A DNA stretch of 17,768 bases from the NCBI GenBank assembly GCA_025453925.1, contig JALOPK010000030.1, forward strand, positions 1 to 17,768. Direction: 5' to 3'. The DNA is from Candidatus Eiseniibacteriota bacterium. GTDB lineage: Bacteria; JAFGKV01. This document shows positions 1,028 to 14,887 of this stretch, in pieces. The position numbers and the translations under genes are program-made. Under the pieces are notes generated by a model, which did not search any database, was not told the origin of the DNA, and saw nothing but the letters and a program-made list of their open reading frames with translations. Every line of letters starts with the position of its first letter. Within the stretch, counting starts at the first letter, position 1.

Positions 1028-1195
1028 ATGCCCACCTACGAGTTTCATTGCACGGCGTGCGGAAAGGAGTTCACGACGATACTGAGCATTTCCGCGCGGG
1101 GTGAAGAGTCGATCGCATGCCCTCATTGCGGTTCGAAGAGGGTCGAACAGCAATACACGGCAGTCTCGGTCAAGACAGGGAAGAAGACCTGGTAG
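1028..1195 (+). CDS. FmdB-family small zinc-ribbon protein
   Basis: A 55-residue protein beginning MPTYEFHCTACGKEF, the typical opening of the FmdB/CxxC-CxxC putative regulatory family. The two zinc knuckles are C8-x2-C11 and C31-x2-C34 (CPHCGS). The protein ends GKKTW, whereas many members have a longer low-complexity tail. A strong GGGAGGAGG lies about 10 bases before the ATG. It starts 76 bases after hypF on the same strand and could be cotranscribed with it. The family is named after a putative regulator of formamidase and amidase genes, but its molecular function is not settled; zinc binding is the only safe inference. Confidence 0.85.
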   Translation: MPTYEFHCTACGKEFTTILSISARGEESIACPHCGSKRVEQQYTAVSVKTGKKTW

Positions 1196-1226
1196 CACGC
1201 CCCCGTGTTAGGGGGAGGAGGTCCTC

Positions 1227-2282
1227 ATGAGAGTGATTTCAGCGGTCATTCTGGCAGTGTTCCTGATCATGCCGGCCCGGGCGGCTGTCCTGTTTGTCTA
1301 CGACCACGACGACGGCGCAACGCTGACCGACCCGATGGGCGCCGGCACGGTGGGCACCGAGTTTGCCGTCGTACGTGCGCTTCAGGCCCTCGGGCATCAG
1401 GTGACCACCTCGACGGTCTTGCCTGCGGATCTGACACCCTACGAGGGTGTCTTTGTGCTCACCGCGTGGTCTACGGGTTGAGGCTCGTGCATCTCGCTTG
1501 AGCAGGCTGCTCAGGCTACCTTGATGACGTACCTTCAAGCGGGTGGTTCGATCTACATCGAGGGTGTCGAGATCGGCTACTACCATGCCACCGGACAGTT
1601 GTACGACTCCGGCCTCTGGGGCTATCTGGGCTCCCTCTACCTGGGCGACGGGAATGCGACGGGCAATGTCAGCCAGCTGCACGGCCAGAACATGTGGTTC
1701 GGGGCGGGCATGCTGTTCGGTTACCCCTACGGGCAGACCCCTGACACGTGGGTTGATATCCTCGGCCCGGCAGGCGTGGGCAGCGGTCTCCAGTTCGTGG
1801 ATCAGCTCAACCAGGGCCGAATCGTGTCATACCAGCCGCCTGGCCAGACGTATCGAACCATTACCAGCGGCGTGTGTTTCTGTGCGTTCAGCGAGAATGC
1901 GCCCATGTCGACGCAACAGCGTCTTATGGCACGCCTCGTGGGGTTCATGGTGGGTGAGGATGCCATTCCACCCGGCGCCATCGCCAGCGTGGAGGCCCAG
2001 CTGGCCGGAACGACGATGACGCTCTCGTGGACTCCGGTGACCCAGGACGCGCAGGGGGACCCGGAGCACCTCGACTGTTATCTCGTGGAGCGTGGGATCT
2101 CCGCGGCAGGCCCCTGGACCGCCGTGGGCATACCGGTGAACGCCAGCTACAGCGGGCAGGCCCCCGGCGCGGGGGATCCGGATCTGCACAGCTTCTACCG
2201 CATCCGGGCGCTGGACGCCACGGGCAATCTCGGCGCGGCCGCGCTGGCGGCGGAGTTTGAGTTCGCCATTGACCATCCGTAG
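1227..2282 (+). CDS. Secreted FN3-domain protein interrupted by in-frame TGA; candidate selenoprotein or nonsense-mutated gene
   Basis: One reading frame runs from an ATG preceded by GGGGGAGGAGG to a TAG at 2280-2282, broken only by TGA at 1479-1481 (codon 85). The N-terminus MRVISAVILAVFLIMPARA is a signal peptide. Residues 20-84 look like the first half of a Rossmann-like domain (VLFVYDHDDG, then RALQALGHQV, then YEGVFVLTAW). The frame resumes right after the TGA as GSCISLEQAAQATLMTYL, then AGGSIYIEGVEIG, so the domain is continuous across the stop. A fibronectin type III-like domain covers roughly residues 249-345. Other cysteines include C88 and a C-x-C at 217/219. The only near restart, TTG at 1521, has no ribosome binding site. 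If the TGA is selenocysteine, the local motif is U85-G-S-C88. If it is a mutation, the gene is a recent pseudogene of TGC (Cys) or TGG (Trp) origin. The family is unrecognised beyond these domains. Confidence 0.65.
1479..1481 (+). other. In-frame TGA codon, possible selenocysteine site
   Basis: The TGA sits in the frame that is coding on both sides. Reading it as selenocysteine gives U-G-S-C, a redox-type motif spacing. A single substitution from TGC or TGG, or a sequencing error, would also explain it. No selenocysteine machinery genes are visible in this window. Confidence 0.35.
1496..1516 (+). promoter_or_regulatory. SECIS-like hairpin just downstream of the in-frame TGA
   Basis: Bases 1496-1504 pair with 1508-1516 (9 bp, one G-T wobble) around a GGC loop at 1505-1507. 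The loop begins 23 bases after the TGA. Known bacterial SECIS elements are hairpins just 3' of the UGA, with an apical loop roughly 16-37 bases away and a G in the first two loop positions. This one meets those loose criteria. GC-rich DNA makes hairpins easily, so on its own it is suggestive only. Confidence 0.35.
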
Positions 2283-2285
2283 ATG

Positions 2286-2321
2286 CTCAGGCTCCCCCGC
2301 GGTGGCGCGGGGGAGCCTGAG
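2286..2321 (+). terminator. Perfect 15-bp GC-rich hairpin, probable terminator
   Basis: Bases 2286-2300 pair perfectly with 2307-2321 around a 6-base loop, starting 4 bases after the stop codon of the FN3 protein. No T-run follows, so it would be a hairpin-only terminator or a 3'-end stabiliser. A second hairpin follows at once. Confidence 0.6.
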
Positions 2322-3591: not shown

Positions 3592-3867
3592 TCAGCTCCG
3601 TTTCTTGGAGGGGCGTGCGTGGTCCTTCAAGAATCGCGTGGCCGCAGTCGTTCTCCGTCTCTCTCTCCTGACAACGGAGACGAGCTCATCCGTCGTGACC
3701 CGCGCCTTGATCGACGGGACATCCAACGGTGACACAGGGGTTCTGTCAGGCTCCAGCGAAAACGTCCGGCCATCCTTACGGCGGATAAGGACTTTGCCGG
3801 TGAGCTCCGCCTTGTCCAGCACAGCGGAGAGTCTCTGTCGCGCTTCTGAGTAGGTATAGACTTCCAT
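3592..3867 (-). CDS. Phd/YefM-family antitoxin
   Basis: A 91-residue protein opening MEVYTYSEARQRLSAVLDKA, followed by GKVLIRRKDGRTFSLEP. This is the N-terminal DNA-binding and dimerisation fold of the Phd/YefM (prevent-host-death) antitoxins. The basic C-terminal tail (RRERRRTTAATRFLKDH) is where such proteins usually wrap the toxin. It follows the PIN-domain gene by three bases, and its ribosome binding site (GGAGGTG) lies in the end of that gene, so the two are coupled. It probably neutralises the toxin and represses the shared promoter. Antitoxin second is not the commonest order for this class. Confidence 0.85.
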   Translation of the reverse strand: MEVYTYSEARQRLSAVLDKAELTGKVLIRRKDGRTFSLEPDRTPVSPLDVPSIKARVTTDELVSVVRRERRRTTAATRFLKDHARPSKKRS

Positions 3868-3870
3868 GAC

Positions 3871-4263
3871 TCACACCTCCAGAGCGTGAATGCCGATCTT
3901 GTCGGCCGCACTCTTGAGAAGGCCATCCAGAGTCAGCAACGGGGCAGCGTGACGCAGCGCGCAATCGAGGTAGTACGCGTCGTATGCATACAAGTTGCCT
4001 GCGTCAGCGATCGACAGCGCGTTCTCTAGATCAACGGCGAGAAGCCGAATCGGGACGGACTGAAAGATGGCCATGCCCCGCCGCGCTTCCCCGAGAGCGA
4101 TTCGCTCCTGCTTCAGCATCGAGGAGAAGGCGTTGCCGATCTCCCATGGGAGCGAACCCGGGCCAATCAGGTCGTGGCCGGCGGTCATCTCAACAATGCG
4201 GTCGCGTTCGGGCTCACCGACGATGACCGCGAGAATGGCAGACGCATCAATCACGATGTCCAT
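3871..4263 (-). CDS. vapC: VapC-type PIN-domain ribonuclease toxin
   Basis: A 130-residue PIN domain, a usual length for VapC. The acidic metal-binding residues are all present: D6 in MDIVIDASAIL, E41 in LPWEIGNAF, D95 in AYDAYYLDCAL and D113 in LLTLDGLL. They coordinate Mg2+ or Mn2+ for RNA cleavage, typically of tRNA or rRNA. Nothing suggests inactivation. GAGGAGGG precedes the ATG. It is the first gene of a two-gene unit with the Phd-like antitoxin and has a near-consensus promoter 30-55 bases upstream. The RNA target cannot be deduced from sequence. Confidence 0.9.
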   Translation of the reverse strand: MDIVIDASAILAVIVGEPERDRIVEMTAGHDLIGPGSLPWEIGNAFSSMLKQERIALGEARRGMAIFQSVPIRLLAVDLENALSIADAGNLYAYDAYYLDCALRHAAPLLTLDGLLKSAADKIGIHALEV

Positions 4264-6497: not shown

Positions 6498-7313
6498 CTA
6501 TTCGAGGATGACGAGGCGCCGCGATTCGGTGACTCCGTCAGTCGCGAGCCGACAGAGATAGGCGCCGGCCGGCACGCCCGCGGCGGCGGCATCCCATGAC
6601 ACGGTGCACGTCCCGGCGTGATGCGTGCCGTTGACCAGGCGTGTGACGAGCGATCCGGCCAGGTCGTAGATACCCAGATTCACCATGCCGGTCTGGGGCA
6701 CCCTGAACGTGATCAGCGTGCGGCCCCGCATGGGATTCGGAGAGCTGGACAGGAGCGCGTGGCCGGGCAGCGGGGTGCCGTCGTGGACGCTCTGAGCCAG
6801 CGGTATCTGAATGCTGGCGGTGTAGATGTAGTCCCCGCTCGTCGATCCGTTTCCGTTCGCGGCATTCGCCGCGGCGTAGAACGTCACGAGATCGGGAGGC
6901 TGGGCAGGCGCAGTCCAGTTGAAGGTCCAGCCCGCCTGATCCATCACGCCGGCGTACGTGCCGGCGGCGGTCTGCTTCACATAGGTCTTGCCGCCCTGGG
7001 TCTCAATCTGAACGGTCGTGGGTTCGATGAGCCCGCAGGTCCCGATGGTCAGCGGGGTGAACTCGAAGCCCCATCGGGACTGCCCTGTCTGTTCGATCGT
7101 GATGACTATGGGATACGTCATGCCCGCCTCGAACGCGTCGGGAGCCGCGATCGTGACTGTGCCGGGGCCACTGTTGAGGCCGAAACTGGCGTGGCAGTCG
7201 TGGCACGTGCCTTCTCCGGGGGCGCCCGTCTTGCCGTTCGGTGGGTTGCCCGAGTATGCGAGGGTGACCGAGGGGGCTGCAACGCACAATGCCGCGAGAA
7301 CGACCAACCTCAT
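6498..7313 (-). CDS. Secreted CxxCH 'choice-of-anchor V' type protein with FlgD-like C-terminal sorting domain
   Basis: A 271-residue protein. After the signal peptide (about 1-19) comes YSGNPPNGKTGAPGEGTCHDC, giving C37-H-D-C-H41, a heme-type CxxCH motif. A roughly 130-residue domain follows with SRWGFEFTPL, TYVKQTAAGTYAG and WTFNWTAPAQPPDLVTFYAAANAANG, matching what I know as the choice-of-anchor V domain. The last 85 residues (SSPNPMRGRTLITFRVPQTGMVNLGIYDLAG to the C-terminus) form the FlgD-like/type IX sorting domain common in FCB bacteria. The start was set at ATG 7313, preceded by AAAGGAGG. It is third and last in an operon of three paralogs. Heme binding is inferred from the motif alone. 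Confidence 0.82.
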   Translation of the reverse strand: MRLVVLAALCVAAPSVTLAYSGNPPNGKTGAPGEGTCHDCHASFGLNSGPGTVTIAAPDAFEAGMTYPIVITIEQTGQSRWGFEFTPLTIGTCGLIEPTTVQIETQGGKTYVKQTAAGTYAGVMDQAGWTFNWTAPAQPPDLVTFYAAANAANGNGSTSGDYIYTASIQIPLAQSVHDGTPLPGHALLSSSPNPMRGRTLITFRVPQTGMVNLGIYDLAGSLVTRLVNGTHHAGTCTVSWDAAAAGVPAGAYLCRLATDGVTESRRLVILE

Positions 7314-7352
7314 GGGAGAACCTCCTTTGTGGCGGGGCATCTTGCCCCACGC

Positions 7353-8441
7353 CTACTTGACGACGACGAATGGCTCAACAGCCACATCGTCTCCGAATGA
7401 TGCGCGACAGACGTACATCGCGGGTGGGATCCTGCGACCGTTGCCGTCGCGCAAGTCCCAGGTTGTAGGTGATCCCGTGTTGGGCGCGACGAAGTGACGT
7501 ACCATTCTCCCTGCGACGTCGATGATCTCGACGTCTTCGTAGCCGTCGGCACGGATCAGCATGGCTGTCTGCCCGTGGATCACGGTCGGCGTCACGTCCA
7601 GCGTACGCTCCGGCCTGGGGATGGTCACGGAAGTCCTTCCGGATGCAGTCTCCCGGCCAGTCGAGCTGACATCCATCAGGCGATATGCGTACTGGTTCCC
7701 AGGGCGAACATCCGGGTCCGTGAAGCGATAATCGTGAGGAACAGGTGACGTTCCTGCTCCCGGGATGAGGCGAGGGGAGATGAGGCTCGTCTCGTCCATG
7801 CAGGATCGATAGATCCGGAACCCGGCATTGTCACACTCGGAGAGGGTTGTCCAGCGCAGGACGACGACGCCCCCTTCGAACGCCGCCCCGAACCGGAGGA
7901 GTTCCACCGGCACAAGACCCATGGAGTGGGTCGCGGTGTAAATGTAGTCTCCTTCGGGCGACCCATCGCTGTTCGCGGCATTACCGGCGGCGTAGAACGT
8001 GATGGACGAGGGAGGTTCTGCCGGAGCGGTCCAGTTGAACGTCCAGGAAGCCGGGCCCGGGGTTCCCGAGTATGTGCCGGCCGCGGTATGTGTGACGTAC
8101 GACCTCCCGCCGGAAACGCTCGCCTGGGTATTCGCCGGATCGGTGATCCCGCACGCACCCTGATCCAAGGGTGAAAACTCGAAGCCCCAGCGGGTCTGCC
8201 CCGCATGTTGGAGGCTCACCGTCACGGGATAGGTTTGCCCGGCCTCATACGAAGGCGGGCCCGAGATGGTCAGCACTCCGGGCCCCGAGTTGAGTCCGAA
8301 ACTGGTGTGGCACATCACGCAGGTATCCTCGCCGGGACCTCCCGTCATGCCGTCAGGTGGCCCCCCGGAATACCCGTAGGCCAGCCCAACCGCGATGCTC
8401 AACAGAACGGTTGCCGTCCATCGTGTCTCTTCGAATCGCAT
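7353..8441 (-). CDS. Secreted CxxCH 'choice-of-anchor V' type protein with additional beta-sandwich and sorting domain
   Basis: A 362-residue paralog of its neighbours: signal peptide to about 23, YSGGPPDGMTGGPGEDTCVMC with C41-V-M-C-H45, then the shared domain (TRWGFEFSPLDQGACGIT, WTFNWTAPAEPPSSITFYAAG, GDYIYTA) to about 175. Unlike the 6498-7313 protein it has an inserted module at about 180-280 containing VVLRWTTLSECDNAGFRIYRS, typical of FN3-like modules just before a sorting domain, and ends in a FlgD-like domain (VEIIDVAGRMVRHF to YVCRASFGDDVAVEPFVVVK). GGGGAGGG precedes the ATG. It lies 15 bases after the stop of the first paralog and 39 before the third. Confidence 0.82.
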   Translation of the reverse strand: MRFEETRWTATVLLSIAVGLAYGYSGGPPDGMTGGPGEDTCVMCHTSFGLNSGPGVLTISGPPSYEAGQTYPVTVSLQHAGQTRWGFEFSPLDQGACGITDPANTQASVSGGRSYVTHTAAGTYSGTPGPASWTFNWTAPAEPPSSITFYAAGNAANSDGSPEGDYIYTATHSMGLVPVELLRFGAAFEGGVVVLRWTTLSECDNAGFRIYRSCMDETSLISPRLIPGAGTSPVPHDYRFTDPDVRPGNQYAYRLMDVSSTGRETASGRTSVTIPRPERTLDVTPTVIHGQTAMLIRADGYEDVEIIDVAGRMVRHFVAPNTGSPTTWDLRDGNGRRIPPAMYVCRASFGDDVAVEPFVVVK

Positions 8442-8456: not shown

Positions 8457-9317
8457 TCAGAGACTGAACTCGACTTCGCCCACGTAGTTCGAGGGCTGAC
8501 CGAGATTCTGCGCCGCGTCCCGGGCGATCACATTGTAGAAGTGGTTGACCACCGGGTTCCCCGCGCCGTTCGGCACGATATGGGGTGGGCCTGCGACGAT
8601 CACGAAGGCCGGGCCTGTCGGAGAGAAGAAGGCCACCGGCGAGGTGTAGACCAGGTAGTCGGTGACTCCCACGTTGTCCCCCGGATTCGACCAGGTAAGG
8701 ATCAGACTGGTGCCCGACGCTGCGATGGAGAGATCCGTCACCGCGTTCGGCGGCTGGGTATCCTGAAGGACTGCCCACGCGACCGTGGTGTAGATGTAGT
8801 CGCCCGTTGAGCGGTTGTTGTTGTTTGCGCCGTTCCCTGCGGCATAGAAGAAGATGGTATCGGGAGGTGTGGCGGGGGCCGTCCAATCGAAGTGCCATGA
8901 CATGGGACCGGTGCTGCCAGCATTGGTGCCGGCGAGTGTTTGCTTCACGTACGTGTTGCCCCCGCTGGCGGAGAGCTGGGTGGAATCGGGGTTCGTGATG
9001 GTGCACGCGCCCTGATCCAGCGGCGAGAACTCGAAACCCCAACGGGTCTGCCCCGGATCGCCAACGGTGACGGTGATGCTGTGCGTGCTGCCCGGAAGGA
9101 ACGTCGCAGGGGCGGCGATCGTGATGAACCCATCGCCACTGTTGAGGGGGAAGTCGGCGTGGCAGTCATGGCAGGTGCCCTGGCCGGGGGCCCCCGTCTT
9201 GCCGTCAGGAGGCCCCGTCGAATAGGCATCGACCGGGCTGGGGAGCCCCGCAAGCGTCAGCACGCTCAGAGTCATCACGACGAACAGCGGGGGGAAGAAT
9301 CGCGTGCGCAGACCCAC
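8457..9317 (-). CDS. Secreted CxxCH 'choice-of-anchor V' type protein with FN3 C-terminus
   Basis: A 286-residue first gene of the paralog operon. The GTG at 9317 was chosen because AGGAGGTGA (9322-9330) sits at ideal spacing and gives a classical signal peptide (RTRFF, then a long hydrophobic core, then PVDA before YS). An ATG 66 bases upstream adds a non-signal-like extension and has its site only three bases away. Mature motif TGAPGQGTCHDCHADFPLNS has C49-H-D-C-H53. The shared domain follows (TRWGFEFSPLDQGACTIT, WHFDWTAPATPPDTIFFYAAG). The C-terminus, from DTQPPNAVTDL, is an FN3-like domain ending VGEVEFSL. It has no FlgD-like sorting domain, so its attachment may differ from that of its two paralogs. 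Confidence 0.82.
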   Translation of the reverse strand: MGLRTRFFPPLFVVMTLSVLTLAGLPSPVDAYSTGPPDGKTGAPGQGTCHDCHADFPLNSGDGFITIAAPATFLPGSTHSITVTVGDPGQTRWGFEFSPLDQGACTITNPDSTQLSASGGNTYVKQTLAGTNAGSTGPMSWHFDWTAPATPPDTIFFYAAGNGANNNNRSTGDYIYTTVAWAVLQDTQPPNAVTDLSIAASGTSLILTWSNPGDNVGVTDYLVYTSPVAFFSPTGPAFVIVAGPPHIVPNGAGNPVVNHFYNVIARDAAQNLGQPSNYVGEVEFSL

Positions 9318-9321
9318 TGGG

Positions 9322-9330
9322 TCACCTCCT
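9322..9330 (-). promoter_or_regulatory. Ribosome binding site deciding a GTG start
   Basis: AGGAGGTGA on the minus strand, four bases before the GTG at 9317; it settles the start of the first CxxCH paralog. Confidence 0.75.
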
Positions 9331-9409
9331 GGTGCGTCGGCCCGGACAGGCCCGTTCCTGGTTCCGGCAGGGTAGGACGCCATAGGCCTCCTGCCTCTTC
9401 ATAGGAACG

Positions 9410-12731: not shown

Positions 12732-13871
12732 AGCGGGATGACGTCCGAACGAGAGAAACACCGACTGTCGAACTGTTTCCGCCCCACGCTTCTTCGACGC
12801 TGTTGCGAGCTGTGCCACACCCATGGCGAACCGCCCCGTCTCGATGGCCGCTCCCAGTAGCACCATGTGACGCCTCGCCTTCGCCTCGACCCAGAGGCCC
12901 AGGGGCAGCGCCACCTTCATCGCCCCGACGAATCCGCCCGAACGATCCCTTTCACCGCCGAACAACACCCGCTCCCCCTGCAGGGCGATGAGCCCTCCCG
13001 CTTCCCACGATTGATCGTGCCAATGGTAGGCGCCCGCCACGAGAAGAGGGTCAAGCAGGTACATCCGTGCCCCGACCACCGGGTCGCTGACGGTCGAGTC
13101 TCCCCTCTGCCAGACGGACCACCCCGCTCCCAGTTCGAAGAAGGACTGCACGTCAAAGCCCCACCCCAGCGCGCCGGCGGACTCATCCCCGCTGTGCGCG
13201 TAGCCCAGCGCCACCCCATTGCCCCCGCGGGCGCACCTTTCCGGGTATCGCATGGCGTACGCCTTGCGTAGCCTCGTGATCGAGGCAACGTACGCCGCCA
13301 CCGCGGGATCTTGTAGCACCGCCCGCCCTTTGCGCCGCACCGTGCCCGGGCCTACGTTGTACGCGGCCAGCGCCAACTCGTCGTCCCCGAACAGGCGGCG
13401 CATCTGTGCGAGATAGGTGAGCCCCCCCCAGAGATTCCACCTGGGCCAGTGGCGATTGTAGACGCCGAGGGACCGGGCGGTGCTCGACGTGAGCTGCGTC
13501 AGGCCCCGGGCGCCCGTTACGCTGACCGCACGGGGATTGAACCCCGATTCGGCGGCCACCAGCGCGGCCGCCAGGGTTGAGTCGACTCCGGTCGAACGAG
13601 CGACTGCGGGGATCTCGGAGCTGCAGAAGAGCGGCAGGCCGAATCCGAGGGCCGCCGACGCGCCCGCCGAACGGAAGGCGATCCGCTGGGCTTCTCGAGG
13701 AAGAATGGCGCCTCCCCATGCCCGAAACCCCGGGGTTCGGGCGAGGGAGGCCGGGTTTCTCCACACGGTCTCTCCCGGCCCGCTCTGGGCGATCAGGGGG
13801 AGTTCGAGCACGTCTCCGAGGATAGGGGGCGCGGCTCGAAGCGAAGGCGGGATGATGCACGAAATGACCAT
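12726..13871 (-). CDS. Lytic transglycosylase (SLT) domain flanked by beta-barrel-like segments
   Basis: A protein of about 381 residues. The centre (about 97-180) is an SLT/goose-lysozyme-like transglycosylase domain: catalytic E108 in AAESGFNP, then GARGLTQLTSSTA and ALAAYNVGPGTV. It would cleave peptidoglycan glycan strands. Before it, WRNPASLARTPGFRAWGG recalls the NPA start of FadL/PorV-like outer-membrane barrels. After it, about 170 residues of alternating amphipathic strands end LATASKKRGAETVRQSVFLSF, again barrel-like. ATG 13871 is the only standard start near a signal-like segment, but it gives a short uncharged signal (MVISCIIPPSLRAAPP) and overlaps the divergent hypA by 17 bases. 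An ATT 24 bases upstream would give a better signal peptide, so the start is uncertain. Confidence 0.8.
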   Translation of the reverse strand: MVISCIIPPSLRAAPPILGDVLELPLIAQSGPGETVWRNPASLARTPGFRAWGGAILPREAQRIAFRSAGASAALGFGLPLFCSSEIPAVARSTGVDSTLAAALVAAESGFNPRAVSVTGARGLTQLTSSTARSLGVYNRHWPRWNLWGGLTYLAQMRRLFGDDELALAAYNVGPGTVRRKGRAVLQDPAVAAYVASITRLRKAYAMRYPERCARGGNGVALGYAHSGDESAGALGWGFDVQSFFELGAGWSVWQRGDSTVSDPVVGARMYLLDPLLVAGAYHWHDQSWEAGGLIALQGERVLFGGERDRSGGFVGAMKVALPLGLWVEAKARRHMVLLGAAIETGRFAMGVAQLATASKKRGAETVRQSVFLSFGRHPAL

Positions 13872-14197
13872 CGCCGTGAGTATTGTGCGAATGGTGGCCC
13901 AGATCCTGCGGGAGCACGGCGCACACCATCCCATATCCGTGCGCATCCGTACGGGCTGCATGACCGGCATCGTCCCCGAGGCGCTGGCGCAGGCCTTCAG
14001 CATCGCTGCTCCCGACGAACTGGGGTGCGTTCCTGAGTTGCGCATTGACCAGGCCTCCGTGGTCGCCACCTGCGCCGAGTGTGGGAATGCATTTGATTCC
14101 GTTGCCTTTCCGGCGATCTGCCCGCAGTGTGACGGGGTGGGCACATGGCTGAAGGGTGGAGACGAGCTGGAACTTGTTTCAGTGGAGGTGAACGACG

Positions 14198-14883
<686 letters not shown>

Positions 14884-14887
<4 letters not shown>

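Follow-up and report, generated by a model that had tools for sequence, protein, structure and literature searches.

Does the TGA that interrupts a bacterial reading frame end its protein, or does it encode selenocysteine (Sec)? The frame lies in a window of 17,768 nucleotides (the whole stretch of DNA that was analyzed), which is contig C295 of a 3.9-Mb genome in 502 contigs with 82% completeness. An earlier reading of the letters alone, here called the sequence-only reading, had proposed a new secreted selenoprotein with a hairpin downstream of the TGA. Comparison of homologs showed, at the level of sequence, that a single protein spans the UGA and that decoding of the UGA goes by way of a SECIS hairpin in an organism that uses Sec decoding. 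We estimate the probability of Sec insertion at 1479-1481 at about 0.95, and the joint claim that Sec is inserted in one exported protein is held with almost the same assurance. The features of the locus are collected in Table 1.

Table 1. Features at the selenoprotein locus, in window coordinates
Feature	Position	Strand	Description and evidence
FmdB-type zinc-ribbon gene	1028..1195	+	directly upstream; PF09723, E 1.2e-15; same neighbor in G001 and G002
Shine-Dalgarno-like GGAGGAGGT	1214..1222	+	upstream of ATG 1227; strong; read from sequence
Selenoprotein gene	1227..2282	+	351 residues, Sec at codon 85, stop TAG 2280-2282; read-through translation, homologs continuous across the site, dN/dS
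Probable signal peptide (MRVISAVILAVFLIMPARA)	1227..1283	+	seen in the sequence; the model has a hydrophobic helix at 4-11
Predicted GATase1-like domain	1281..1961	+	residues 19-245; AlphaFold2, VIA-align
In-frame TGA read as Sec	1479..1481	+	UGSC motif; TGA kept at this column in six loci from three genomes; selA, selB, selD and tRNA-Sec in genome
Bacterial SECIS hairpin	1496..1516	+	9-bp stem, loop GGC 1505-1507; folding, covariation, best conserved stem, absent from 13 non-Sec homologs
C-terminal FN3-like part	1962..2279	+	many proteins encoded in the same genomes match residues about 241-348; named after its sequence pattern
Possible terminator	2286..2321	+	16-bp inverted repeat directly 3' of the stop; read from sequence, stem also flagged in hairpin scan

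Reading frame and conservation of the in-frame TGA

Read-through translation confirmed the starting point of the sequence-only reading, namely that frame 1227-2282 holds a single internal TGA, at codon 85, where the translation runs ...TAW-STG-U-GSC-ISLEQ.... Ordinary genes of the window also end in TGA, which is thus used as a normal stop, and there is therefore no genome-wide TGA reassignment. A read-through search gave six loci with TGA at a single alignment column, from three genomes and two phyla: the window gene, its homolog in a genome of the same genus (G001; 68% identity), a paralog in the window's own genome (C220; 59% identity) and three loci of a genome from another phylum (G104; 32-34% identity over the whole protein and 37-38% over the domain). 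The G001 homolog is the same gene as that in JAFGKV010000147.1, a contig of a congeneric Candidatus Fermentibacteria MAG that was the true match in a scan of genome contigs for relatives; another match in that scan, L033, was unrelated and due to chance. An invariant Trp (W81) stands beside the TGA column in all six loci, and exactly one Cys accompanies the Sec in each, at +3 (UGSC/UxxC) or at -1 (CU), the motifs being STGUGSC and GTGUGSC in one pair and WGCUGAS, WWCUAGA, WYCUGGG and WWCUGGGG in the other four.

The main alternative named by the sequence-only reading was a nonsense mutation or a sequencing error. A mutation, pseudogene or assembly error confined to one genome would be in keeping with the many contigs and partial completeness of the host assembly, and with the decayed look of the homolog in G002, a genome of the same family, where a remnant (L036, 1660-2221) with no N-terminal third carries AGA at the TGA column and retains the hairpin in 7-bp form, a state that looks like a recent loss. 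This explanation was nonetheless refuted by the recurrence of the TGA in all six loci, and the covariation of the hairpin and the purifying selection on both sides of the TGA also stand against it, making it exceedingly improbable. Between the window gene and the G001 homolog, dN/dS was 0.154 upstream of the TGA and 0.171 downstream, with dS of 1.15 and 1.04, respectively (synonymous sites near-saturated), and the TGA codon was unchanged. By this comparison purifying selection is equal on either side of the TGA, and on these values the gene is not dead.

Termination followed by a restart would yield two polypeptides, one from 1227-1481 and one from 1521 or 1524, and a TTG (1521) and an ATG (1524) are indeed available downstream. 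However, no ribosome binding site was seen upstream of 1521, as had been stated from the sequence, the residues between the TGA and 1521 are conserved among homologs, and 13 homologs run as one continuous frame across the site. Additionally, the second polypeptide would be without a signal peptide and the fold would be split, so that two separate products are highly improbable.

The sequence-only reading had asked that homologs be aligned to see whether Cys or TGA occupies the column, and this check came out in favor of Sec, with TGA there in the six loci; the distant non-Sec homologs have a shorter loop at the Sec site and no Cys at the column. No homolog carrying Cys at precisely the Sec column turned up in a survey of roughly 400 genomes; Cys homologs exist for nearly all selenoproteins (PMC13188914, a 2026 review). 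In one distant G104 domain (L101) the loop at that site contains a Cys (SCGGT), which does not align clearly with the Sec column. No further TGA-bearing members came from profile searches in 3 genomes of the host phylum, 1 of the phylum of G104 and 14 of the phylum of G123, or in two sets of 386 genomes that overlap, and the Sec-bearing subfamily is known from three genomes only. In the phylum of G123 (L142-L152, L117), the non-Sec homologs are single-copy in 13 of the 14 genomes, and many have a C-terminal tail in common, for example APASLGRVRALFR or SWGEIKAGYR, which could be a sorting signal. In the C220 copy (L030, 2150-2330), about 60 bases close to the end of the contig occur twice, head to tail, probably through an assembly fault; the duplication shifts the frame, and extra stops occur only beyond it.

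The downstream hairpin and the selenocysteine machinery

A 9-bp hairpin with a GGC loop had been described as starting 23 bases after the TGA. The stem length and the loop were both correct, and the distance of 23 nt from the TGA is that to the loop; the stem, in which 1496-1504 pair with 1508-1516, starts 14 nt after the TGA. By the same rule, SECIS-like hairpins of at least 9 bp follow 4 of the 491 TGAs on the two strands of the window. In one sequence alone the hairpin is thus only moderately unusual and no more than suggestive, whereas its conservation across the family far exceeds what chance would give. Across the six-sequence alignment 96.3% of the hairpin cells were paired, as compared with 24-41% when the partner was slid by 1-3 columns, and 13 compensated double changes were counted. 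The covariation score was 0.659 versus 0.220 in shuffles, and none of the 500 shuffles scored as high. When every stem of 7-9 bp with a loop of 3-9 nt was scanned along the codon alignment of the domain, this hairpin ranked first among 11,751 placements. In the 13 TGA-less homologs, which belong to the phylum of G123, only 2-6 of the nine hairpin positions pair.

Published limits for bacterial SECIS elements (bSECIS) comprise a loop of 3-9 nt with G in its first two positions, a spacing of 16-37 nt, a stem of 4-16 bp and an energy of at most -7.5 kcal/mol (PMC13188914). All six hairpins fall within these limits, having stems of 7-10 bp, 3-nt loops starting with G, spacings of 23-26 nt and energies of -8.4 to -12.6 kcal/mol, and the comparison with a SECIS model that the sequence-only reading had called for thus came out in its favor. 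Covarying across two phyla, the hairpin offers a good natural series for the study of SelB recognition.

The host genome was also searched for the selenocysteine machinery, and selA (523.6 bits), selB (333.9 bits), selD and tRNA-Sec (78.8 bits, anticodon TCA (UCA)) were all present. The host selD itself carries an in-frame TGA (SelD Sec motif AAGUAAK); with the machinery in place, a known selenoprotein therefore already uses Sec decoding in this organism. The selD hairpin, GGCGCAG-GTC-CTGCGCC, has the apical GCAGG..CTGC pattern in common with the hairpin of the window gene. Near-cognate tRNAs can decode UGA in general, and the UGA might accordingly undergo read-through, or be decoded as a different amino acid such as Trp, with the aid of the hairpin. 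This has very little probability here, given the complete machinery, the need of selD for Sec decoding, and a hairpin that agrees with the SECIS model and is similar to the selD hairpin. Altogether, the reading of the TGA as Sec is supported by the machinery, by agreement with the SECIS limits, by covariation and by the conserved TGA.

Protein architecture, neighborhood and proposed role

An earlier structure model from 6 sequences was poor (pLDDT 63) and was superseded by an AlphaFold2 model with 37 homologs (pLDDT 90.9, pTM 0.89). This model predicts a class I glutamine-amidotransferase-like fold behind the probable signal peptide, and VIA-align gave Z of 14-17 to GATase1-like, ThuA-like, GH42-middle-domain and IFT52 structures. 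The proposal of an FN3-type secreted protein therefore needs amendment, as the main domain is predicted to be GATase1-like and FN3-like sequence makes up only the C-terminal third. Pfam had no family for the protein at E up to 0.1, including FN3 for this third, no NCBIfam model (release June 2026) matched at E up to 1, and a sequence search of the PDB gave no relative. The G104 selenoproteins have their C-terminal part (profile about 235-345; 105 places) in common with dozens of other G104 proteins, and this domain might serve in sorting or anchoring.

Strand order in the model would place the Sec loop (residues 80-92, predicted with lower confidence) after the third core strand. Judged by the order of secondary-structure elements, it would correspond to the oxyanion-loop side of the pocket in true glutamine amidotransferases. 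Strand order would likewise put Glu112-Gly113, which are conserved in at least 90% of the 37 sequences, at the nucleophile elbow, where they would replace the catalytic Cys.

We propose that SelB and Sec-tRNA(UCA) bind the hairpin 14-35 nt after the UGA and insert Sec, so that one full-length protein would be made and, judging by its N-terminal signal peptide, exported. The Sec would lie in a loop inserted after the third core strand of the GATase1-like body. Because one Cys always stands beside the Sec, the pair probably cycles, outside the cytoplasm, between selenol/thiol and selenenylsulfide or else coordinates a soft metal. In view of the motif and the fold, on which a functional assignment of low confidence is based, one of these two roles is likely, and for a redox role of the Sec/Cys pair in particular the odds appear about even. 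Rather unlikely is a Sec that is not redox-active and acts as a soft metal or metalloid ligand in an extracytoplasmic binding protein. Such a role would agree with the CU motifs of the metal- or mercury-related selenoproteins HgcA, SaoL and MbdU (PMC13188914), with the place of the Sec loop at the pocket edge and with a nucleophile position that has no catalytic Cys, but the neighboring Cys is the only second soft ligand conserved across both lineages and there are no adjoining transporter genes. As to origin, it is a tentative suggestion that Sec arose in a new loop of an extracytoplasmic GATase1-like domain and not by replacement of a catalytic Cys; the protein would then have a chemistry not known from the fold, as a selenoenzyme or as a binder that depends on selenium, and no Cys-bearing ancestor.

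Upstream, hypF and the FmdB-type gene are kept in three Fermentibacterota genomes and not in G104, so the neighborhood gives no functional clue. The order hypF-FmdB-selenoprotein is kept in G001 and, with the remnant, in G002. The contig carries hypF (1-951), hypA (13840-14232) and hypB (14198-14887), which serve NiFe hydrogenase maturation. Three tandem related proteins, probably secreted, are encoded on the minus strand (6498-7340, 7353-8441, 8457-9383) and have a GTCHDCHADFPLNSG-like motif (CxxCH, haem-binding type); two of them were searched against Pfam, with no match. Two small adjoining genes at 3592-4263 (minus strand) resemble, by eye, an antitoxin and PIN-domain (VapC-like) toxin pair.

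Comparison with known systems

Bacterial selenoproteins have been tabulated in 119 families (PMC13188914). None of these could be linked to the window gene by way of the NCBIfam and Pfam models that exist for them; NCBIfam covers many of the 119, including the UGSC family (NF041046) and a glutamine-amidotransferase selenoprotein (NF004836). The claim that the protein stands outside known selenoprotein families was thus upheld by the lack of a Pfam or NCBIfam match and of a fitting family in the table of PMC13188914. No paper treating selenocysteine and Fermentibacter together was found in a search of a library of open-access papers. As far as can be checked from sequence comparisons, this is a secreted selenoprotein family not found in current catalogues. 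Selenoprotein searches mostly depend on Cys homologs; a family without them is therefore missed by design and annotated as two broken fragments.

The closest resemblances are partial. With NF041046 the window protein has the letters U-G-S-C in common, and it matched no model at E up to 1; the likeness is probably a coincidence, since UGSC is not kept in 4 of the 6 homologs. NF004836, a CTP-synthase C-terminal-related selenoprotein with the motif GxUxG (PMC12013277), likewise has a relationship to glutamine amidotransferases. Its motif suggests that Sec is placed at the catalytic nucleophile, whereas the window protein has its Sec in another loop and Glu-Gly at the nucleophile place, again with no model match at E up to 1.

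Among proteins without Sec, the predicted fold is like that of GATase1-like, ThuA-like and GIFT-type domains (3RHT, 1T0B, 5FMR, GH42 middle domain), with Z of 14-17 over 176-203 residues, but identity is 8-15% and the window protein is probably secreted; we know of no Sec in such domains. The class I glutamine amidotransferases have the GATase1-like fold in common with it, but not the catalytic Cys at the nucleophile elbow. Homologous domains (E 1e-22 to 1e-30) occur in secreted multidomain proteins with C25 and M6 peptidases in other phyla, where they have no TGA and a different loop and are set within large proteins.

With the selenoproteins that depend on SelB and bSECIS elements (SelD, FdhA and others), the window gene shares the UGA, a hairpin loop that starts with G 16-37 nt downstream, and selA, selB, selD and tRNA-Sec, and known selenoprotein families also use UxxC and CU motifs. 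It differs from them in having Sec in a loop insertion, in having no Cys-bearing homolog and in its predicted secreted GATase1-like fold. With it, uncultured phyla (Ca. Fermentibacterota and a second one) would gain a secreted selenoprotein family, which would also be a rare case of Sec in an inserted loop rather than as a substitution for Cys.
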